IMG/VR virus record: IMGVR_UViG_3300042534_000516
Coordinates: 1 to 45,095 of that record
DNA: 45,095 bases
From: a virus
Strand: one strand, 5' to 3'
The position numbers and the translations under genes were made by a program. Positions 2,665-45,095 of the stretch are shown piece after piece. The notes under the pieces were generated by a model. It did no database searches. It was given only the letters and a program-made list of their open reading frames with translations, and was not told the DNA's origin. Each line of letters begins with the position of its first letter. Within the stretch, counting starts at the first letter, position 1.

Positions 2665-5610
2665 ATGGCAATAACATTAAATACTAAAACTAAAAAGAGT
2701 CTACAAGCTTGAATTGATACTCTTTGAATGGATGAAGCAAAGAAAAGACTTAGCGAGGGCTGAGTTCTTTCTTGACTTCAAGAACAAGCAAAAACTCAAA
2801 AAGCTGAATGAACAACTTGAATTAAGCCAGTTTCTCCTGTTTCTTCTCCAGTAGTTAAAGATAATATATGATGAGCTGATAAAAGCTGACTTGAAAAAGC
2901 TACAGGTTATGAATCAAGCCAAGTCTGAATAGAATGAGTGAATCTATTTAAAAAACCACCTGTTATTTGATGAGGGACAACTGACACTACTTGAGCGTGA
3001 ATTTGACCAGATTCTAATATGTGATGAGTAGAATGATGAAAAGGTTTACCAAAAATAGATGATACTATTACTTCTTGAACTCAATGAGAATGAACTACTT
3101 GAATAACTTGAGAAACAGGTTATGAAGATAGAAATAAAGATTGAGTAATAGGAGCAGATGAATTATCTTGAGATTATAAAGCTTTTTATGATACTTTAAG
3201 TGATACTGAAAAGAAACTATTTCTAGCTACTTGAGAAAATGCAATGAAGAATAATCTTGATATAGCAGAAACATATGCTAATTATATGAGGGATTATGAA
3301 ACTACTAAAAAAAGAACTCAAGAAGATGAAGCTTATAGATTACAACAACAAGGTATTAGTTGAGAAGCTACAGATATTCAAGATAGTGCAACATTAAGAA
3401 GAGCAACTGCGTCAGTAGACAAACTAAAACAAAGTATAGCTTATATGGGTAGTATGTGAATGCCTTGAAAATCATCTCAAAGAGTTGTATCAATAGAAAA
3501 TCAAGTTACAGAAGCTACTAAAAGTTTAAATGAATTAAGAAAACTACAAGAATTAGCTAAATCATCAAGAGAATTATGAGAGATTAAATCAGCTCAACAG
3601 TATGAAAGACAAATGGAAGATATCACTACTAAATTAAATGATGATATTGATAAATCAATTCAAGATGCTTTTAATTCATTTACTGCTGCGGATAATGGAT
3701 GACAATTAGATACAGTAGAATGATTAACTGCCTTTAGAGATAAAATGTATGCTGATTTAGATATGAGTATTACAGGTTTTTCTGATGCTAGTATATCACA
3801 AATGAAATTCTTAGTATGAGAAGTAGATAAAGCTAGAAAAGAAGCAGTTGCCTACGAACAGAATGCAAACACAGTAAATTCAGAAATGAGTGCAGTAAAA
3901 GGATATTATGTAAATAGTAATTGAGCTCCTATTTATTGAGCTGATTGAGCTACAATTAAAATACCTAAATCTATTCCAGAAGGATTTGAGCCTTTTGTTA
4001 ATAATGGTAAATTCTTTTCTCCTAAAATGGATGCTAATTGAGAATTAATACTAGATGAAAATGGAAGTCCTATATTTAATAGTACACAATTAGAAGATAC
4101 AGTAAGTGTTACTGCTCAATTATCAAATGCTTATATAGATATGGTTAGTAAAGGTGTTATGTCAGCAGAGGACGCTATTAAGGCAGTTCCATGACTAGCT
4201 ACAAATGAAGCGTTTATTAAATGAGTTGAGAAACCAACAGATGAAGTTGATGGTAATTATAAAGAAGATTCTAAATGAAGATTATATAATTCAAAAACAG
4301 GTAAATATTTAGATGATGTATGAGAAAAAGATTCTAATATATCTAAAGAAGATGCAGTTATTTGACAATATACATTAGCTGACTGAACTACTATTACAGC
4401 TAGTAAATGAACAATAGACTGATTAAATAAAGTAATGGCTATTAATCCTGATATTCAGTTTGATTTGAATAATTTATATAGAACACAAGAAGACCAATAT
4501 AGATTATATGGACAAGGTAGAACAGCAGAAGAATTAACAGCTGAATGAATACCTGCAGAATATGCACAACCTGAATTACCACAAGTTAGTTGGACAACAA
4601 AAAGCTCACACATGACAGGTAACGCAGTTGATGTAGTAGTTCCTGAATGACAAGATGCACAAACTTATTTAAGTTGAGTTGAAGAAGAAATGAATAAAAA
4701 TTGATTCTTTAGACCTGAAGGAACTATGGCTAAATGAGATTATGGACATTTTGAATATCAAGGAGTAGTTAAAGAAGAAAAGTGAATAATAGGAGCATTA
4801 TGAGTACCAATAGCTTATGAAAGACAAATTAAACAAATGGTTCCTACTCAATTAATGAATAGTGAAATAGAATTAGAAGCACTAAATGATACTATTAAAA
4901 GAATGTGAGAAGCTGGAATACCTGTAGAAGATGCTGTATTAACTTATTTATGATTTGATATAACAGTTGATAATAAAGAAAAGGCAACTGAGTATGTTAA
5001 TGTAGGTAAAAACCTATGAGAAGACTTACCAACAAATTATTTTGCAACAGTTTCAAATCATTTAGCTAAATGAGACCTGAAAGCAGCTGATAAATATGTA
5101 TCAAATATAGTAGAAGATAAAGTAAAAACTAGGTATTGAGAAGATGCAATTATGACTGCTAGTATAAATCAAACAATGAAAGATACTAGAAATTTATCTA
5201 ATTTAATTGCAAAAAATCCAGATAAAATAGGTCAATTTGATTGAAGAGTCAATGATATAATGAGAAAATTCAAAGATTACCCAGAAATGACTGAGTTAAA
5301 TACATTATTAACAATGACTCAAGCACAAACTAGGAAACATTTTGCTTGAAGTGCTGTTACTCCATCAGAAATGGAAGCATTACAAGATTTTATCTGATGA
5401 AATACTAAAATGACTCCTAATAATCTATTAACTATGCTTAATACGATTAAAGATAGAACTGAGAGTCAATTCTTATTACAAAGAAAACAATTTTGATATA
5501 CTCCTTCATTAAAAGGTAAGGAATGAAATATAATTAAAGATACTGCAGAAAATGACCCACTAGATTTATGAATAGATACAGCAAATAATGACCCTTTAGG
5601 AATTAATTAA
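2665..5610 (+). CDS. Large virion protein with M15-type peptidase domain
   Basis: 981 aa. The N-terminal 150 residues are Gly-rich and low complexity; residues 170-400 are charged and helical. A peptidase domain of the M15/VanY/L-Ala-D-Glu endolysin type lies at about 640-700: SSH with H649, D656 in GNAVDVVV (H-x6-D spacing), then D692-x-x-H695 in GDYGHFEY, which are the expected zinc ligands and catalytic acid. The rest, to 981, is helical. The gene sits between a tail fibre and the ADP-ribosyltransferase-like protein, upstream of the large terminase. This suggests a virion-associated wall hydrolase, like internal or tail lysins of short-tailed phages, rather than the lysis enzyme at 25758. 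The peptidase call is good; the virion role is inferred. Confidence 0.75.
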
Positions 5611-5616
5611 TTAATT

Positions 5617-8268
5617 ATGCAAACTAAACAAGAGTTTATACAAAAGATAAAAACTAAGTATCCAACTTATAATAGTATGGATGATAATATTTTGTATGAT
5701 AAAATAATCGCAAAACATCCTGTATATGAGAATCAGATTCAGAAAGATGAAGCTCCTACTCAAGAAATACCAGCTGATACTGGTATAGTTTGAAGTATGA
5801 AAAAAGCTATAACTCCATTAAAAGAAACTTTCACAGAAACAATTCCTCAAATATGATGAGCTATTGCAGAATGAGCTAAATGAGCTATTAAAGATATTGC
5901 TTATCTAAAAGAATGAGTAAAACAAGAAGACCCCTCTTTTATATGAAGAACTGCTGAAAAAATACAAGATGTATGAGCAGGAATAAAAGAAGCTAAAACA
6001 GCAGAAGTGATGTGAGAACAATCTCCTACTAAATCTCTTTTACAATCTATGTGATTCATAGCATGATGAGTATCTGAAACTATCTGAGATGCTTTTATTT
6101 CGTGATTAAAAACTATTGCTCCTGAAGATGTAGAAATACAAGTTAAAGAATGAATACAAACTGCTATGCAAACAAAATGAGGACAAGCAGTTACTCAAGA
6201 AATACAAGAAGCTTTAGATTGATATAATTATTTAAAAGAAACTAATCCTGAAAAGGCAAGAGATTATAAGGCGTTCTTTTGAGCTTTAGAATTAGCAGCA
6301 GATGCTACATGAATTGCTACTGTTTGAAAAGTTTGAGCTAAAGAAACTTGAAAACAAGTAATTAAGGAGGCTTGAAAAGATGTTATTACTCCTCCTATCA
6401 CTCCAATAGTACCTAAACCTTGACAATGAATAGTTCAAGGTAGTAAAATAGAAGCTATAACACAACCATTCATTAAACCTATTGAAAAGGCTAAAGAAGC
6501 ATTTAAATGAGCTGAGACTAGATTACAAGCTTGACCTCAAGAATTTAAATGAGTAGTTTGACAAAAACCAGTTATTTCTCCTATAAAACCTTTACCTAAA
6601 CCAAAAATAGAAAACGGAATAGATATAGCTAAATCAGATGATTTAATAAGAAGATGATTAAAACCTAGTGCTGCTTGAAAAACAACTTTGCACGCTTATG
6701 AAAAAACAACTTGAGATTTAAGAAAAGGTATCGAATATGTATCTAAATCTAAATGAATTGCAGATGATTGAATGGATGCATTTAGGAAAACATCAGATAG
6801 AAAGAAAGAAATATATAAAACTATCGAAAATAATAATGAATTAGTTAAAATCAAAACTTCTATTGATGATATAGAAACAAACTTAAATAAATATTTTGAA
6901 ACTGATGAATGAAAAGCTTTCGTATGAGCTAACCCATGAATTAAGAGTAGAATTAAAAAACAAGCTGATAATTGGAGAGATACATATTGAGATAATATTG
7001 TTCAATCTGATTTACAAAGATTAAAGGTTGATTATAATAAAAAATTACCAGCATCAGATTTTGCTAAAATGTTACAAGGCTCAAATCCATGAGCAATTGC
7101 AGATGCTAAGATAGCACAAACTCTAGGTAATATCTTAGATGATAATGTAATGAAAGTTTTATGACAAACTAATAAAGCTTTAAATAAAGAATACTGAGCT
7201 GTTAGAACATTAGAAAAAGCTTTAGCTAAAAGAATGTGAGTATTTAGTAGAAACACTAAATGATGAATAGGATGACTACTAGATACTTTCAATGCCTGAG
7301 ATATAGTAATGTGAGTATTAACTTGAGATGTAAAACAAGCTGGGGGATGACTTATTAGAAAAGTTGCTCTAGCTACTGTTAAAAGAGGAGAAAATCCTAA
7401 TATAATCATTAAAGATTTATTCAAACTACATTGAACTAAACAACCTACACTTTGAGGTAAGATTCAAACTATTACTTGATTAGAAGATAAAGCTTTTAAA
7501 TGAACACCAAAAGCTATTACTAAACCTAAACCTATTCAATCCAAAGCAAAACCAACTCCTAAAGTAACTACAGAACCAACAGTAAAGAAAGTAGAAGCTA
7601 AGGTAATTAAAGAGCCTACTAAAAAATCTCCTGTAAAAACAGAAAAAGCTATCTCAAATAAGAAAGGTTTTATAGCACCTAGAAAGATAGGAGAGAGTAT
7701 TTGAATTAAATCTAGTAATTATAATAAATCAAATCTTGACTCTCTTATTAAAAAGGCTAAAGATACTTGAAAAATGCCTTTAAACGAAGATATAGCTAAA
7801 GGATTTATGACTAAACCTACTTTATTACAAAGAAAGGCTGAGATAGATAAAATTAAGGCTATTATTAAAAAAGAAGCTAATATAAAAGAGTTTGTAAAAA
7901 CTCCTAAAATAGTTAGAAAACCTATAATAAAAAAAGACTCTAATATATTAGATAATCTTAATCCAACAGGTTGATTATATGTAGAATATAACCCATCTAA
8001 GATAGCTAAAATGAAACTGGCTAAGAATATAACTACACTAGATAAAACAGCTTGAAAGAGTCCTAGTGATATTGTTACTATATATAGATGAACAGTTAAA
8101 TCACAAAAAGATATAGTACCTTGAGATTTTATAACAACTAATTATGATTTAGCTAAGTCATACGCTTGAGAATGAAAAGTAATTACTAAGAAGGTAAAAT
8201 ACTCAACTGTATTAGATGATATAAAAGAACCTTTATGAGAAGAATATATTTATAGACCAATTAAATAA
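5617..8268 (+). CDS. Large virion-associated protein with ADP-ribosyltransferase-like C-terminus
   Basis: 883 aa, Lys- and Ala-rich, largely helical. The N-terminus (FIQKIKTKYPTYNSMDD) resembles the short N-terminal segment of many phage internal proteins. At 820-880 the order IYRG (R824), PGDFITTNYDLAKSYA (836-851) and EEYIYRP (E875/E876) matches the R, S/T-T and E pattern of ADP-ribosyltransferase-like domains in phage polyvalent or head-associated proteins. The position just before the large terminase and portal suggests it is packaged and perhaps ejected into the host (inference). The substrate cannot be read from sequence. It follows the previous gene by 6 bases. Confidence 0.6.
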
Positions 8269-17945: not shown

Positions 17946-18833
17946 ATGTCTGATAGAGCAAGTAATATAAAATTATCCGATACAAACGATTTAGAAATAA
18001 ATCCAGCTACAAGTGATAAGCAAATAAATTGAGACCAAATAGCTCAAGCTAGGCTTTATGATGCAGCGTGAAATTCTATTGAAAGTTTTGGTTGAGCTTT
18101 AAATGTTCACGATGCAGATGTACATAATGTTCCATTTAATGAGTATTTTCATAGACATACTGGAGTATCAACTACAATAGCAGTAGCAAGTTTAGCAAAT
18201 GCAACCTCAATAACAGTAGCAAGTTCAACTTGAATTGTTGTAGGCTCAGTATTACAAATATCAGATTGAGTAATTGAAGGTACATTTCCAATAGTAACAA
18301 TAGTTGTTTGAAATGTATTAACTTTAGATAGACCTTTAAATAATGCTTTTGAAATAGGAGATACAGTAGAGGTTATTGTTACTAATATGAGAAATGAAAT
18401 TTGAACATTAACTGCTCCAATATCTTATAAACTTATTCCAAATGGTAATCAAACAGTTCATATAGTAAGATTTCTATTTTCAATGACTCACTCAACTGCT
18501 TGAGATTTAGGTTTATTTTGAAATATTACTAAATTAATAAATTGAGTAACTTTAAGAAGATATGATTGAACTACTTGAACATATTGAACTTTTACACACT
18601 GGAACTCAAACTCTGATATAAAAGATGATATGTATGATGTTGAATTTGATACCCGTTCATCTGGTGGTGGTACATTTGGTACTAGTGGTAGATGAAGTAT
18701 AAAAATATGAACTTGAGCTGTACCAGTATTAGATTGAAGTAAATGAGATTATATAGAAGTCTTAATTCAAGATAATATACAGTGATTAATAAGTTACACA
18801 CTTAAATGACAATGACACGTTGCGAATCTTTAA
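17946..18833 (+). CDS. Beta-rich virion protein (fibre or baseplate-like)
   Basis: 295 aa. HDADVHNVPFNEYFHRHTG, then repeated TIAVASLANATSITV/SVLQISDG segments and LDRPLNNAFEIGDTVEVI match a beta-rich family common in phage fibre clusters. Position between a coiled-coil protein and a fibre protein supports a virion appendage role (inference). Confidence 0.6.
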
Positions 18834-24770: not shown

Positions 24771-25706
24771 ATGCTTATAAATTGAGAATGTTTAGAAGAA
24801 ATGGATAAATTAATAGAGCAATGAGTAAAAGTTGATGCTATCATTACAGACCCTCCATATTGAACTGTAAAATGACTATGATGAGATATAGAAAAATACA
24901 AAAGACTAAGTAATTCTACTTGGGATACTAAAATCCCTTTAAAAGAATTATTAGAAAGATGTAATAAACTTTTAAGAATGAATTGAAGTTTAATTTTATT
25001 TTCACAAGAACCTTATACTTCAGAGATTATAACAAATGCACATTGAAATATCCCATTTAATTATAGATTACTTTGGAATAAGTTACATTTTGCAAATTGT
25101 TTAATAGCCAAAAAAGCTCCTGTTAATTATTTTGAAGATATTTGTGTATTTACAAAAGAATATGATACAGAATTTACACACTCTTTAAGAGAATATAGTA
25201 GAAGTATCTTAGAATATATTTGAAAAACTATGAAAGAAGTAAATAAAGATTTATGACATAGAAAATCTGAGCATTTCTTTTATTGGAACACATTACAATT
25301 CTGATTATGTACTGAGAAAACATACAATGAATTAATAGAAATATATTCAATAGATAAAATAGATTGATTTAAGGAATATAAAGAATTAGAAGATATTAAT
25401 AAGAGATTTAATAAGATATTTAATCTTCCTGAGTGAAGAAAATTTAAATCAAACATATTAGAGTATAAAAAAGATTATACTTGATTTCACCCAACACAAA
25501 AGCCAGTTGCTTTAATGGAGGATTTAATTAAAACCTACACTAATGAATGAGAAACAGTTTTAGACTTTACAATGTGAAGTTGAAGTACTCTTGTTGCAGC
25601 AAAAAATACCAATAGAAAGGCAATATGAATAGAATTAGACAAAGATTATTATGAAATTGCAAAAAAAAGGCTCTCAGATTTGACAGAACAAAGTAAATTA
25701 TGCTAA
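24771..25706 (+). CDS. DNA methyltransferase, N4/N6 type, beta class
   Basis: 311 aa. Catalytic DPPYG at D27-G31 precedes the SAM-binding DFTMGSGS at 265-272, which is the beta-class order. HPTQKPVALMEDLI lies just before the SAM motif. Gly31, Gly269 and Gly271 are all TGA codons, strong internal proof that UGA is Gly. A middle insert (about 120-220) probably holds target recognition. No partner restriction gene is seen, so it likely protects phage DNA from host restriction (inference). Confidence 0.92.
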
Positions 25707-26405: not shown

Positions 26406-26409
26406 AAAC

Positions 26410-26437
26410 TTGCATTATAACAATATATAACTATAAT
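26410..26437 (+). promoter_or_regulatory. Promoter reading into a terminator
   Basis: TTGCAT (26410-26415), 16 bp, TATAAT (26432-26437). The DNA from -10 upstream resembles the promoter at 42026 (shared TATAACTATAATAGATAC). It is followed after about 35 bases by a terminator, so it yields a very short RNA or an attenuated transcript. Confidence 0.7.
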
Positions 26438-26470
26438 AGATACTGTTATAAATAAACCAAACCCATTACA

Positions 26471-26495
26471 AAAAAAGTCCTTAAGGATTTTTTTT
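26471..26495 (+). terminator. Terminator
   Basis: AAAAAAGTCC, loop TTAA, GGATTTTTTTT. Closes the endolysin transcript and the short transcript from 26410. Confidence 0.85.
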
Positions 26496-26496
26496 G

Positions 26497-26523
26497 TTGA
26501 CTTAAAATAAAAATTATTATAAT
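26497..26523 (+). promoter_or_regulatory. Promoter for ncRNA 1
   Basis: TTGACT (26497-26502), 15 bp, TATAAT (26518-26523). Lies directly between the terminator and the structured RNA. Confidence 0.75.
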
Positions 26524-26529
26524 AAACCT

Positions 26530-26752
26530 ATTAGTCACTTGGACTGTAGCTAGTTTTCAAGTAAGACTTGATTAGCAAGTAAAGACCCAAGCCCAATGCT
26601 AATGACTTCAAGTGAAACTCTTGAAAGGCTAAAATACTTATACAATAGTTAGCTACAACCCGTATGAGTAGGGATTATAAAAAAGATAACCACCTTGTGA
26701 AATCCAGTATAACAGGGAATATTAGACTCGTAATCAGATGCTGGTCTTTTTT
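26530..26752 (+). ncRNA. Structured noncoding RNA 1 (about 220 nt)
   Basis: No ORF in any + frame. Helices seen: P1 TGTAGCTA 26545-26552 with TAGCTACA 26650-26657; P2 TCAAGT/ACTTGA 26557-26571; P3 TTAGCA 26572-26577 with TGCTAA 26597-26602; P4 TTCAAG/CTTGAA 26607-26625; P5 CCC/GGG 26659-26673. The P5 loop GTATGAGTA (26662-26670) pairs with TACTTATAC (26635-26643), a 9-bp pseudoknot with one G-U. CTTGG 26538-26542 may pair with CCAAG in the P3 loop. Own promoter upstream and terminator downstream. It is not a tRNA, tmRNA or RNase P RNA that I recognise. Confidence 0.8.
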
Positions 26753-26756
26753 CTTT
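26704..26756 (+). terminator. Terminator of ncRNA 1
   Basis: CCAGTAT (26704-26710) pairs with ATGCTGG (26738-26744), one G-U, followed by TCTTTTTTCTTT. The loop is long (27 nt). Confidence 0.6.
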
Positions 26757-26792
26757 ATTAAAAGCCAAAGTAACAATAATTAAAAAAAAGAT

Positions 26793-26820
26793 TTGCATTA
26801 ATTTTGTTTTGTTATATAAT
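26793..26820 (+). promoter_or_regulatory. Promoter for ncRNA 2
   Basis: TTGCAT (26793-26798), 16 bp, TATAAT (26815-26820), then ACTTGTGTCTT, the same initial sequence as at the 32124 promoter. Confidence 0.8.
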
Positions 26821-26826
26821 ACTTGT

Positions 26827-26970
26827 GTCTTTATGACTGCTCTTTTTATAAACTGATGTTTCTAGTGCCTTTACTTGATGACTGGGGAGTCTTTATGAAG
26901 TAAGTGCATTAGCGAAAAAGAACATAAAACCACTTAAGCCAGACTCCCATTTAGCTTAAGTGGTTTTTTA
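26827..26970 (+). ncRNA. Structured noncoding RNA 2 (about 140 nt) with terminator pseudoknot
   Basis: Helix CTAGTGC 26862-26868 with GCATTAG 26906-26912 (one G-U), inner TTACTT/AAGTAA. The 3' end is a 13-bp terminator stem, AAACCACTTAAGC 26927-26939 with GCTTAAGTGGTTT 26954-26966. Its loop AGACTCCC (26941-26948) is complementary over 8 bases to GGGAGTCT (26885-26892). The latter can instead form a local GACT-GGGG-AGTC hairpin. Own promoter, no ORF, ends before the replication initiator gene. Confidence 0.75.
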
Positions 26971-26987
26971 TTTGCTAAAAATAGACT

Positions 26988-27662
26988 ATGAGAACAAATA
27001 GTTGAGCAATATTGCTATCTCGTAGTATTTACGATTCAGATATATGGCATAAACCAAGCGACTGGCTTAAAATATGGATTTATATATTATGAAGAGTAAA
27101 TTTTTGAGATACTAATCAATTTAAAAGATGAGAAAATTACTTTAAATATGAAGTAATAGCTCTTGAATGTAACACTACTTATAAAGTGGTTGTAAGTTGT
27201 ATAAAATTCTTAAAAGAGGGAAAGCAGGTGGTAACACATAAAACCACTAGAGGTAACATAATAGAGGTACTTAACTATGAAAAATATCAAGATTTAGATA
27301 ATTATGGAAAAGCACAAGGTAAAGCAGATGTCAAAGCAAAAGTAAAAGCAGATGTCATCACTATAAAAGAAGAAGGGAAAGAATGAAAAGAAATTTTATC
27401 TAACGATAAAACTATTGAGCTTGAAAAATTTATAGAACATTGGAATAGTATTTTTTGAGAGAGTAGAAAAGTAACTCCTCCATTATTAAAAGAATATTTA
27501 AGAATTAGAAAAGAATATTCTTATGATGATTTTAAAAAATGATACAATGCTTATAAAAATAAAAAGTTAGAAACTAAAAAAGAGATGTGAACTTTTAAAT
27601 ACTTATTATCTCCATTAGCTTTTTTAAAAAATAATACGAATTGATTTGTTAGTTATTTATAA
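26988..27662 (+). CDS. Replication initiator / replisome organiser
   Basis: 224 aa. The N-terminal winged-helix-like part (LLSRSIYDSDIWHKPSDWLK, KRGENYFKYE, then IIEVLNYEKYQD) matches phage replisome-organiser proteins. The C-terminal part (LEKFIEHWNSIF, FLKNNTNGF) resembles the helicase-loading tail. It is followed 9 bases later by a DnaB-like helicase, so it probably binds the origin and loads the helicase. The noncoding RNA region just upstream may contain the origin (inference). Confidence 0.75.
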
Positions 27663-27671
27663 AATAATATT

Positions 27672-28880
27672 ATGTACACATACAATGAACAAATAGAACA
27701 AGCTTTTTTATGAAGTGTTATGTTTGATAATTTTATTATAAAAGAAACAACACTTACTGAATCTGATTTTACTAATAATAAACATTGAACTATTTTTAGA
27801 ATGTTTAAAGCATTAGTAGAAAATTGAAAAGAAATAACACCTCTTACATTTAAAGCATTTTTAGATAAAAAAGATTTAATAAAAGAAATATGATATAATG
27901 TTATATTTGATATATGAGAAAGTTATGAGTTATGAACTCATTATAAAACTTATGAAGATATTATAAAATGAAATAGTAGTGATAAAAAAATAAGTAATAT
28001 TAAAGCTAATATAACAAAAGATAATTTACAAGAGAGTATTAAGCTATTAAATAGTTTAGAAGAAAAGAAAGAAAAGTGAAATAATATAATTGATTTAGCT
28101 AATAGTTTTGAAGATTTTAGAGATGATTTTAAAAAACAAGGTGGATTATGATTTCCTTGACCTTATAAACTTATAGATAAATATACTTGATGAATTATAT
28201 CTTGAAAAGTATATTGTATAGTTGCTTATTCTTGAGTTGGTAAATCTAATTTTAGTTATTCATATATAACAGATGCACTAAAAAAATGAAAGAAAGTAGT
28301 TTGTTTTAGTTTAGAGGTACAAAAAGAAATGTTATTTAATAATTTACTTAAAAGTTATTATAATGTAAATCAAACACAAATACTAAAAGAAGATTTTGTT
28401 TATGATTTATGAGATTTTGAAAATTTAATTGTTTATGATAATATATATAAGTTACAAGAAATAAAACAAACAACAAAACAAGATAAGCCTGATATTATAG
28501 TAATTGATTTTATACAAAATGTACAAGTACAATGAAATAGTGAATATGAAAAAATGACAACTGTAGCACAAGAATTACAACAATTAGCTATTGAAACTAA
28601 TATTACTATATTTAATATATCACAAGCTAATAATGAAAGTAGATTTAAAGATAGTTGATATATACAACCTAAATGAAGTTGAGCTATATTTGCTTCTAGT
28701 GATATTATATTTGCACTAAGTAGAGATTGACAAAATTTACAATTAAACTTATTAAAAAATAAATACTGACCATCTGATAAAAACTTTATTGTAATACCTG
28801 AATTTAGAAATATACAATTTAATATATCAGCAGAATTACAAAGTGATGAAATAAAACAAGACCAAACAGATTTTAGTTAA
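27672..28880 (+). CDS. dnaB: DnaB-like replicative helicase
   Basis: 402 aa. Helicase core: Walker A AYSGVGKSN (G188-V-G-K191-S192, with G188 a TGA codon), FSLEVQKEM, Walker B IIVIDFIQNVQ, and ISQANNES near the C-terminus. The N-terminal domain is present but short. It unwinds DNA at the phage fork with the host polymerase, since no phage polymerase is seen. Confidence 0.9.
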
Positions 28881-32123: not shown

Positions 32124-32151
32124 TTGACAAAATAATAGAAAAGAATATAAT
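32124..32151 (+). promoter_or_regulatory. Promoter
   Basis: TTGACA (32124-32129), 16 bp, TATAAT (32146-32151), then ACTTGTGTCTT as at the ncRNA 2 promoter. The 5' leader to 32241 can fold by TTAAGAT near 32161 with ATCTTAA near 32204. Confidence 0.85.
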
Positions 32152-32241
32152 ACTTGTGTCTTAAGATAACAGAAACCAAACATATTGTTTAACATCTGCT
32201 ACATCTTAAACTAAAAAACATTAATTCTTAATTATATAATT

Positions 32242-32391: not shown

Positions 32392-32716
32392 AATAGAAAA
32401 CTATAAAAGAGAACATAATAAGGAAATAATATCTAATATAGAACATAATAAGAAAATAATAAGATTATATATTAGTGCTACTGAATATTCTCAACAATAT
32501 AGTGAAAAGATATTTTGGTTATTAAAAGAAAATATAGAATTATATAAACTTTTACATAAGAAAGTAAAACACATACCAAAAAGAAACATAGAAATTAAGA
32601 AGATAGAAAAAAAAGAATATAAAGAGCCTGAATTTGATGAATACGATAATACACAAAATGATTTGAGAATACAAGAATATGATAATGAGGGAGAACTAAG
32701 TTATAGATTAATTTAA
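32384..32716 (+). CDS. Charged helical protein
   Basis: 110 aa, rich in Lys/Glu/Ile; one of the very few genes here with no TGA codon, so it is intact under either code. Not recognised. Confidence 0.65.
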   Translation: MTKIENYKREHNKEIISNIEHNKKIIRLYISATEYSQQYSEKIFWLLKENIELYKLLHKKVKHIPKRNIEIKKIEKKEYKEPEFDEYDNTQNDLRIQEYDNEGELSYRLI

Positions 32717-34263: not shown

Positions 34264-34947
34264 ATGACTAATACAAATACTGGGAACTGAAATACTGGGA
34301 ACAGAAATACTGGGGACTGGAATACTGGGAACTGAAATACTGGGAACAGAAATACTGGGGACTGAAATACTGGGTACAGAAATACTGGGGACTGGAATAC
34401 TGGGAACTGAAATACTGGGAACAGAAATACTGGGGACTGAAATACTGGGTACAGAAATACTGGGGACTGGAATACTGGGGACTGAAATACTGGGTACAGA
34501 AATACTGGGGACTGGAATACTGGGAACTGGAATACTGGGTATTTTAATATAGATGAACCAAAGGTAAGAATATTTTGAAAAGAAACAGATATAAAAAGAG
34601 AAGATATAAGTTTCCCATCATTTCTATATTTTAATCTAACTGAATGGATAAGTGAAAGTGATATGACAGAAGAAGAAAAAAAAGCTGATGAAAACGAATA
34701 TTATAAAACTACTGGAGGATATTTAAAAAGTTATGAATATCAAGAGGCTTTTAAAAACAGTTATAATAAACTATCAGAAGAGGAAAGAAAAAAACAAGTA
34801 GAGCAACTAAGAGCTTTACCAAACTTTGATAAAGATATGTTTAAACAAATTTCTTGAATAGATATTGAAGAAGAAAAAACAGTTAAAGAATATACAATAG
34901 CTGAATTACAAGAAAAACTATGAGAAACTTTTAAAATTATTAAATAA
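34264..34947 (+). CDS. Pentapeptide-repeat protein with conserved C-terminal domain
   Basis: 227 aa. About 18 NTG(N/D/Y)(G/R/W) pentapeptides form the N-terminal half. The rest has SFLYFNLTEWISES, TTGGYLKSYEYQEAFKNS and LRALPNFDKDMFKQISGIDI, a C-terminal region seen in a phage pentapeptide-repeat family. The fifth repeat position alternates TGA (Gly), AGA (Arg) and TGG (Trp). Related proteins have Trp or Arg there, so Gly here marks mutation of TGG to TGA. Pentapeptide solenoids may mimic DNA or bind proteins; the target is unknown. Confidence 0.8.
34270..34544 (+). repeat. 15-bp tandem repeat array encoding the pentapeptides
   Basis: About 18 copies of AATACTGGGNACNGR, highly uniform at DNA level, which suggests recent expansion. 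It is in frame and coding, not a CRISPR. Confidence 0.9.
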
Positions 34948-40239: not shown

Positions 40240-40346
40240 TAATAACACTACAACAATATTTTACATAGGCAAAAAAGAATTTTTAAGGACTTGTTGTAGT
40301 AAACAAATACATTTATGTAAACCTTGAAAGTTCTTTTTTGTTGTAA
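40240..40346 (+). ncRNA. Bistable structured RNA segment
   Basis: ACTACAACAA (40247-40256) is a perfect complement of TTGTTGTAGT (40291-40300). Its last eight bases can instead pair with TTGTTGTA (40338-40345). CAAAAAAGAA (40270-40279) pairs with TTCTTTTTTG (40331-40340), and TTTACATA (40260-40267) with TATGTAAA (40314-40321). The helices cross, so they cannot all form as simple hairpins. No ORF. It lies directly before a homing endonuclease gene. Confidence 0.6.
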
Positions 40347-40358
40347 AAATTAAAGATT

Positions 40359-40922
40359 ATGGAAATATGGAGAGATATAAAATTTTATGAATGATTATAT
40401 CAAATAAGTGATTTAGCAAGAATAAAAAGCTTATGAACAGGTAAATCAAATAATTCTAAACCTATTATAATGAAAATAGGAAAAAGAAGACAATATTGAA
40501 AGATAATGTTATATAATAATTGAATAGGTAAAGAATTTAGTGTTCATAGGTTAGTTTGACAAGCATTTCTTTGATTAGATATAAATAATCCTAAACAATT
40601 ATGCTTACATAAGTATGAAGAACTAGATAGTAGATGAATGTTAAATAATTCAAAAGACAATCTATTCTTAGGAACACATAAAGACAATTCTCAAGATATG
40701 CTTTCAAAATGAAGACATAAACCAGCTTGGAAATGAAAGTTTTGAAAAGAACATAATATAACAAATACAATTAAGCAATATACAATAAATTGAGGATTTA
40801 TAAAAAATTGGAATTGAGGATATGAAATACAAAGGGAATTATGATTTTATCCTTCAAATATTAATAAGGTATGTAATTGAAAAAGAAAAACGGCATATTG
40901 ATTTATATGGAGGTTTGGATAA
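40359..40922 (+). CDS. NUMOD4-HNH-NUMOD1 homing endonuclease
   Basis: 187 aa. NUMOD4 start IWRDIKFYEGLYQISDLARI-KSLG. HNH core VHRLVGQAFLG, LCLHKYEELDSRG, LNNSKDNLFLGT. C-terminal NUMOD1-like DNA-binding unit (YEIQRELGFYPSNINKVCNG then KRKTAYGFIWRFG). Unlike the gene at 24049 the HNH His is present. Probably mobile; its insertion may have broken a neighbour. Confidence 0.88.
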
Positions 40923-44383: not shown

Positions 44384-45095
44384 ATGAGCTATGATTCAGC
44401 AAAGCCAGTAGAGTTAAAAGATGTATTTTCAGGTGGTTTTGTAGATAATACACCAGAACACACACTTTCAGATAAATTTAGCCCATATCTAAGAAATGCA
44501 AGATTAGATGGTATGGCTATTATTAATAGACCGTGACATTCATTACTATCTACACTAACAGCTTGAGATTATCCTAGAGGTATCTGAAGCTATTTAAGAA
44601 CAGTAGCATCTAACGATAGATTAATTGTTAGGCATAATACTGATTGAACACATAAACTATATACAATTACAGAAGCCTGAGTAGCTACAAGTATTGTTAC
44701 AGGAGCAAATATAGCTAGTGATAATAGAATGAGCTTTCAAAATGTAGCAGATGTAGTATATTGTATGAATGGTAGCGATGACTTCTGAAAACTAAGTGCT
44801 ACTACATATACATTACCAACAACAGGGATAACAAACTTTGCCCCTGCTTTTTCTGTTGTATTTAATGGTAGTCATTGGGCTAGTGGTTGGGCTACAAATC
44901 CTAATAAGGTTTATAAATCAGTATGAGATAATTACGAAGACTTTAATTCAGCTGGTGCAGATACATTTACATTTCAAGAAACAATAACAGCTTTAGCAGT
45001 AAATAATGAAGCTTTATTTTATTTTACAAAAAATTCAATAAGTGTTACAGGTATTTCAGACATACAAGATATATGAGGTTCTATTAATTATACAA
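44384..45095 (+). CDS. Tail protein, beta-propeller-like (5' part; continues at 1)
   Basis: ATG at 44384 opens a frame that reaches the window end and continues at base 1 to 990 (base 44969 and base 1 are both codon starts). Total 524 aa. The N-terminus (KPVELKDVFSGGFVDNTPEH, then LDGMAIINRPGHSLLSTL) is typical of phage tail-hub proteins that start each blade with a hydrophobic strand. Assignment is inferred. Confidence 0.7.
44969..45095. repeat. Terminal direct repeat, copy 2 (circular join)
   Basis: Identical to bases 1-127; see copy 1. The non-redundant genome is 44,968 bp. Confidence 0.95.

Follow-up and report, generated by a model that had tools for sequence, protein, structure and literature searches.

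A candidate pseudoknotted leader RNA upstream of the replication genes of a TGA-recoded phage, and terminator leaders in its relatives

The replication locus of phage W and its transcription signals

The window analysed was the whole 45,095-nt sequence of phage W (IMG/VR record IMGVR_UViG_3300042534_000516), the first 20 bases of which are repeated at 44968, as fits a complete, terminally redundant contig. TGA is read as an amino acid in W, long frames being unbroken only when it is read in this way, and the same reading is used by Absconditabacteria and Gracilibacteria. No tRNA or tmRNA gene was detected in the window with ARAGORN. A gene at 34264-34947 contains a long NTGN/NTGD repeat, and comparable Gly-rich repeat genes are present in other phages described below (G5, G11 and L075).

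The longest uncoded stretch of W (26406-26987) houses the RNA under study, RNA1. On its left this stretch borders a gene that weakly matches endolysins; on its right, on the plus strand, come a gene for a DnaD-like helicase loader (26988-27662; PHROG 2514, E = 1.3e-11, TGA translated as an amino acid) and a gene for a DnaB-like replicative helicase (27672-28880; Pfam DnaB and DnaB_C). The initial annotation had placed the RNA in the only large noncoding region, just before the replication initiator. The stretch is indeed the longest that is uncoded, but "just before" leaves out another promoter with its leader (26793-26975) in between, and the gene is that of the DnaD-like loader.

A transcript from CCTATTA to the U-run (26527-26757, plus strand) is proposed for RNA1 from a promoter-like sequence, a terminator-like hairpin and the counterpart in the related phage G1. 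The promoter-like sequence (26497-26523, plus strand) consists of TTGACT and TATAAT (26518-26523) separated by 15 nt, a sub-optimal spacing, and the terminator-like hairpin (26704-26752, plus strand) of a 7-bp stem, CCAGTAT/ATGCTGG, with a 27-nt loop, followed by TCTTTTTTC. The annotated promoter and terminator of RNA1 are both plausible, but the former is not ideal, the latter is weak, and neither was listed by the consensus scan (loop limit for terminators, 8). Downstream of RNA1 comes a new promoter, not a gene, and there is no ATG near the terminator. A strong antisense promoter-like match lies inside RNA1 at 26674-26701 (minus strand; TTCACA / 16 nt / TATAAT, 11/12), the background of the scan being about three weaker matches per region; it would drive leftward transcription over the pseudoknot.

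The second leader, RNA2 (26821-26975, plus strand), is placed between RNA1 and the replication operon. Its promoter-like sequence, TTGCAT / 16 nt / TATAAT (26793-26820, plus strand), was listed by the scan in the shifted form TTTGCA / 17 nt / TATAAT. A terminator hairpin of 17 bp followed by a T-run is predicted from the sequence at 26926-26967 (plus strand), and the ATG of the loader gene is 20 nt 3' of the stem. The upstream strand X (GGGAGTCT, 26885-26892) pairs with the terminator loop (AGACTCCC, 26941-26948), with p = 0.005, the floor of 200 shuffles, in the scan and p = 0.006 in the single-leader test. The 17-mer TATAATACTTGTGTCTT at the RNA2 promoter (26815-26831) is repeated at about 32143-32160, 3' of a TTGACA at 32124 and ahead of another uncoded leader.

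Pseudoknot and fold of RNA1 and its counterpart in phage G1

RNA1 was searched with a detector for short hairpins whose loop pairs over at least 8 bp with upstream sequence, and one such pairing was obtained. Strand c (TACTTATAC, 26635-26643, plus strand) is exactly complementary over 9 nt, including one G-U pair, to c' (26662-26670), the loop of hairpin d (26659-26673, plus strand; CCC-GTATGAGTA-GGG). Of the dinucleotide shuffles of RNA1, 1.1% contained a 9-bp case and 4.1% one of 8 bp, and the 9-bp pseudoknot of the initial annotation is borne out. For the loop of hairpin d, a further pairing of 7 bp is possible, its TATGAGT (26663-26669) matching ACTCGTA (26726-26732) in the terminator loop. 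The second loop contact that had been suggested can form in this way, but it is not significant; with only 7 bp, below the scan threshold, the terminator loop of RNA1 was rejected as an address.

Outside c-c', the fold of RNA1 is indistinguishable from chance, since its nested minimum free energy was not better than that of shuffles (z = -0.31) and the strength of its strongest helix was reached by some helix in 21% of shuffles. This strongest helix, b, joins 26545-26555 (TGTAGCTAGTT, plus strand) to 26647-26657 over 11 bp. Helix a joins 26535-26543 (TCACTTGGA, plus strand) to 26607-26615, and like the whole 5' domain (26530-26634) it is known from a single sequence, without covariation support. 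The earlier count of at least five helices is not supported for the 5' domain.

When the whole window was compared with Rfam 15, no family matched at the gathering threshold; matches below it were at chance level and no riboswitch was above it, in agreement with the earlier statement that the RNA matches no familiar class. With TGA read through, the longest ORFs in RNA1 are of 39 codons on the plus strand and 49 on the minus strand, none plausible as a gene, and the annotated absence of an ORF stands under the code of the phage. An 18-codon ORF at 26596-26652 ends in the pseudoknot, and a leader peptide, of unremarkable length, is possible there. A group I intron or other splicing element was rejected by inspection, RNA1 lying between two complete genes and interrupting none; intron models were covered through Rfam.

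Relatives were sought by searches with the terminase, DnaB, portal and capsid proteins, and G1, G5, G7, G11-G17 and fragments were obtained, all of them TGA-recoded. G1 (43 kb) has a terminase 78% identical to that of W (tblastn) and a DnaB 59% identical (alignment); DnaB as bait retrieved G1 and otherwise distant helicases. G7 is a contig from a genome bin assigned to Dependentiae. The TGA-recoded contig RXKB01000065.1 (L037-L039; 43.7 kb) is in a bin labelled Candidatus Dependentiae and is probably misbinned. Genes for tRNA-Ala, tRNA-Glu and tRNA-Gln were found in G5 and G12 (L020 9-81, L021 154-230 and L061 8046-8132).

RNA1 is recognisably kept in G1 alone among the relatives. It had no meaningful blastn match in the relatives or in 50,697 phage records, an exact 18-mer from its core was absent from IMG/VR, and the motif detector, run on the other relatives, turned up no further clear homologue. 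Ahead of the equivalent operon in G1, a promoter-like TTGACA/TACTAT is followed in order by CCTATTA, the strand ATTCAAAA, a hairpin whose loop is ATTTTGAATG, the sequence ATTATAAA and a terminator; another promoter with its leader comes next, and the order common to both phages is promoter, RNA1, terminator, promoter, RNA2, replication gene and DnaB. The counterpart was spotted by eye at the expected place and tested afterwards, its pairing having a chance level of 1.3%.

For alignment, the pieces of W and G1 were cut so that the c strands begin together. All eight shared c-c' pairs are kept, three being changed on both sides and one on one side, with none broken, and 15-45% were still paired when the partners were slid by 1-3 columns; with two sequences, the letter-shuffle control of this covariation is weak (58/500). 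Of the two outcomes named in the initial annotation as refuting it, an Rfam hit was not obtained, and a lack of covariation in homologues is not what is seen in the sole relative that has the region: in both phages the short hairpin that comes next after c has a loop complementary to it, with compensatory change between the two. By sequence analysis of two genomes, W and G1, the 3' core of RNA1 (26635-26757) is supported as an unrecognised structured RNA with a pseudoknot, and this core is probably real; the initial annotation as a whole is upheld in part.

Leaders with loop addresses in W and its relatives

Every hairpin with a following T-run in W and its relatives was scored for pairing of its loop with upstream sequence, an ATG being counted when it opened a frame of 50 codons or more. 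Pairing at p ≤ 0.01 was found for 14 of the 54 hairpins within about 30 nt of an ATG (0.5 expected), compared with 5 of the 344 remaining hairpins (Fisher, 1e-9). The 14 of 54 serves as a guide, since the design of the detector had been guided by the earliest examples and some of the 14 (e.g. G1r 25325 and L044 2731) are inside genes and may be chance pairings.

Fifteen leaders from six recoded phages were picked by hand and tested singly against shuffles of their own 5' segment. The best single address pairing had p = 0.001-0.018, and the crossed pairing, X then Y, had p ≤ 0.025 in 13 of the 14 leaders having one, the order X-Y-T-X'-Y'-T' being present in many. Most of the leaders lie just before an ATG, and the genes that follow encode HNH, NUMOD4 or MUG113 endonucleases or belong to the replication operon, apart from a few without an assignment. 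The third leader of W (40247-40345, plus strand), for example, is ahead of a NUMOD4 endonuclease gene (40359-40922) and comprises X (40247-40254), Y (40260-40267), terminator arms at about 40269-40288 and 40322-40341, and the loop strands X' (40293-40300) and Y' (40314-40321), with p = 0.003 for the crossed pairing. Equivalent leaders are ahead of the replication gene, which encodes a DUF6291 protein, in G1, G5, G11 (where the match is below the Pfam cut-off) and G7, in which two small genes intervene; in G12 one is ahead of an HNH gene that is itself just before a putative replication gene.

Compensatory changes were examined in two pairs of leaders. In the alignable paralogues G7_6543 and G7_9947, 93.9% of cells are paired, with six double-sided changes spread across X, Y and T, and in G1_38460 and L075_635, 97.2% are paired, with five double-sided changes, one in X and four in T. 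L075, a fragment of a phage whose terminase is a different one, was retrieved from IMG/VR with the stem common to W_40285 and G1_38460. Its three leaders (592-713, 3297-3395 and 5955-6040) lie before one clear NUMOD4/HNH gene and two genes whose matches to endonuclease types are weak, which suggests that leader and endonuclease move together. For six leaders of G7, the energy of address pairing is -7.7 to -14.5 kcal/mol with the loop of the same leader and -7.6 kcal/mol or weaker with the loops of the other five. Architecture, position, compensatory change and the self-specific addresses of G7 can all be read directly from the sequences.

Two leaders of W clearly belong to this set, the one at 40247-40345 and RNA2, the terminator loop of RNA2 being an address (p = 0.005-0.006) with an ATG 20 nt away. 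RNA1 is a looser relative, akin in architecture and not a member, because its terminator loop pairs over only 7 bp; what follows it is another promoter, with no ATG of a gene within about 30 nt of the terminator. Nevertheless RNA1 is probably not a stand-alone oddity, its architecture and place being common to the leaders of related phages. That the leaders constitute an undescribed class of cis-regulatory RNA, terminators tied by one or two address helices in the crossed order X-Y-T-X'-Y'-T', with copy-specific addresses that do not cross-pair, spreading along with homing-endonuclease cassettes and also used in replication control, with RNA1 as an enlarged variant, is a proposal that we hold to be evenly balanced. 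The wider set is a more interesting result than RNA1 itself.

Possible working of the leaders, alternative readings and known systems

From the arrangement of promoter, 5' address strand or strands, hairpin with the complementary address in its loop, U-run and then ATG, we infer transcription, termination and switching of the leaders as follows. The address-bearing hairpin is usually the terminator itself, and most of the leaders, RNA2 included but RNA1 excepted, have the ATG close by. Transcripts from the leader promoter would mostly end at the terminator. Address pairing would be possible while the 3' arm of the terminator has yet to be synthesised, and the pairing that wins during transcription would set the fraction of polymerases reaching the gene. 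A 5' strand about 4 nt from a 20-bp stem, as in G7, could hardly coexist with the full stem and would favour read-through, and one at 20-35 nt could coexist with the stem and may stabilise it. In RNA1, c could alternatively pair with the 5' arm of the terminator (TTATAC/GTATAA, 6 bp), and c-c' pairing would free the terminator.

In G7, Y is about 4 nt from the 20-bp stem, the spacing of X and Y is down to 4 nt, and X' overlaps Y'. By helix dimensions, X-X', Y-Y' and the full T stem could therefore hardly all be present together, and simultaneous X-X' and Y-Y' pairing in one molecule was judged unlikely. This suggests a choice between pairings and not a single static structure, while X by itself could span the stem.

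For RNA1, the reading as a cis-acting leader, the first of two putative tandem attenuators before the genes of the DnaD-like loader and DnaB, is held with middling confidence. Against it are the lack of an adjoining ATG, the weak terminator, the location of the pseudoknot in a separate small hairpin and the number of sequences (two). Its own promoter-like and terminator-like signals, the new promoter in place of a gene downstream, and a size larger than that of most leaders would also suit an independent, trans-acting small RNA that targets mRNA of the host or the phage, or binds a protein, with the pseudoknot as a stable fold and RNA2 alone regulating the operon. However, the search for antisense targets of RNA1 within the phage genome gave none beyond chance (longest match, 12 nt; shuffle mean, 12.1), and c and c' are conserved in pairing and not in sequence, a misfit with a sequence-specific antisense role for these strands. 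Action in trans is considered possible but unlikely.

Random complementarity in an AT-rich intergenic stretch, in W and G1 alike, would be compatible with the z of -0.31 for the nested fold, with the non-significant strongest helix and with covariation from only two sequences, but it would have to produce two motifs, each at about the 1% level, in equivalent places with similar spacing and flanking strings, and is regarded as improbable. Quite improbable, too, is a worn or lineage-specific leader whose former gene, for instance that of an endonuclease cassette, has been lost, leaving an extra terminator before RNA2. Leaders do travel with endonuclease genes and occur in a phage with a different terminase, and RNA1 has a weak terminator and lacks the downstream gene of most leaders; the same tandem arrangement and the kept pseudoknot in G1 are, however, unexpected of a decaying relic.

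Attenuators and pseudoknotted transcriptional riboswitches of the preQ1-I type combine a leader with a terminator, a pseudoknot, co-transcriptional alternative pairings and a gene directly 3'. The leaders resemble them in architecture and, on the proposed working, in the alternative pairings, but they show no apparent conserved ligand-binding core, the paired strands varying freely between copies, and in most of them the partner strand pairs with the terminator loop, not the 5' arm. C4/CI-type antisense immunity RNAs of phages P1 and P4 are short RNAs with two blocks complementary to the same leader region, which cause premature termination and act in trans after processing. Paired complementary blocks in a short phage RNA are a common feature, but in the leaders both partners are inside one short transcript, and no Rfam match to the C4 family was obtained.

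Expression of T4-type homing endonucleases (I-TevI, segB, mobE) is held down by RNA structures and terminators, namely a hairpin over the ribosome-binding site that is bypassed by late promoters, or a weak terminator within the coding region (mobE, segF) (PMC2988022). The leaders likewise tie RNA structures and terminators to phage homing endonucleases, but their loop-address terminator sits before the ATG and behind its own promoter. The 5' end of tnpA, the mobile gene of IS200, is likewise highly structured and also occurs as a small RNA, and the abstract of PMC12594629 describes no loop-address pairing; the downstream genes that were searched included no IS200/IS605 transposase. Such leaders were not described in the full texts searched on phages of these hosts, terminator-loop pseudoknots or endonuclease leaders, an absence that is no proof of novelty, and a main paper on phages of Absconditabacteria and Gracilibacteria mentions no non-coding RNA, terminators or riboswitches (PMC10746230). 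If recurring, the leaders would offer a naturally occurring example of RNA switches that co-vary and are self-specific, with free but self-matched addresses, and, if the proposed working is true, selfish endonuclease genes would be kept in check without a protein repressor. The leaders are short and directly testable by in-vitro transcription.

Further crossed elements were noted in two relatives. G5 has two elements of the order a-b-c-a'-b'-c' (L020 8240-8366, plus strand, and L021 about 32460-32620, minus strand), and behind each come a terminator of its own and the start of one member of a pair of similar genes (ATG); the member that was searched has no Pfam or PHROG match. G1 has another structured leader (L017 about 25267-25412, minus strand; G1r 17980-18125), with a long crossed pairing, a terminator and a gene start.
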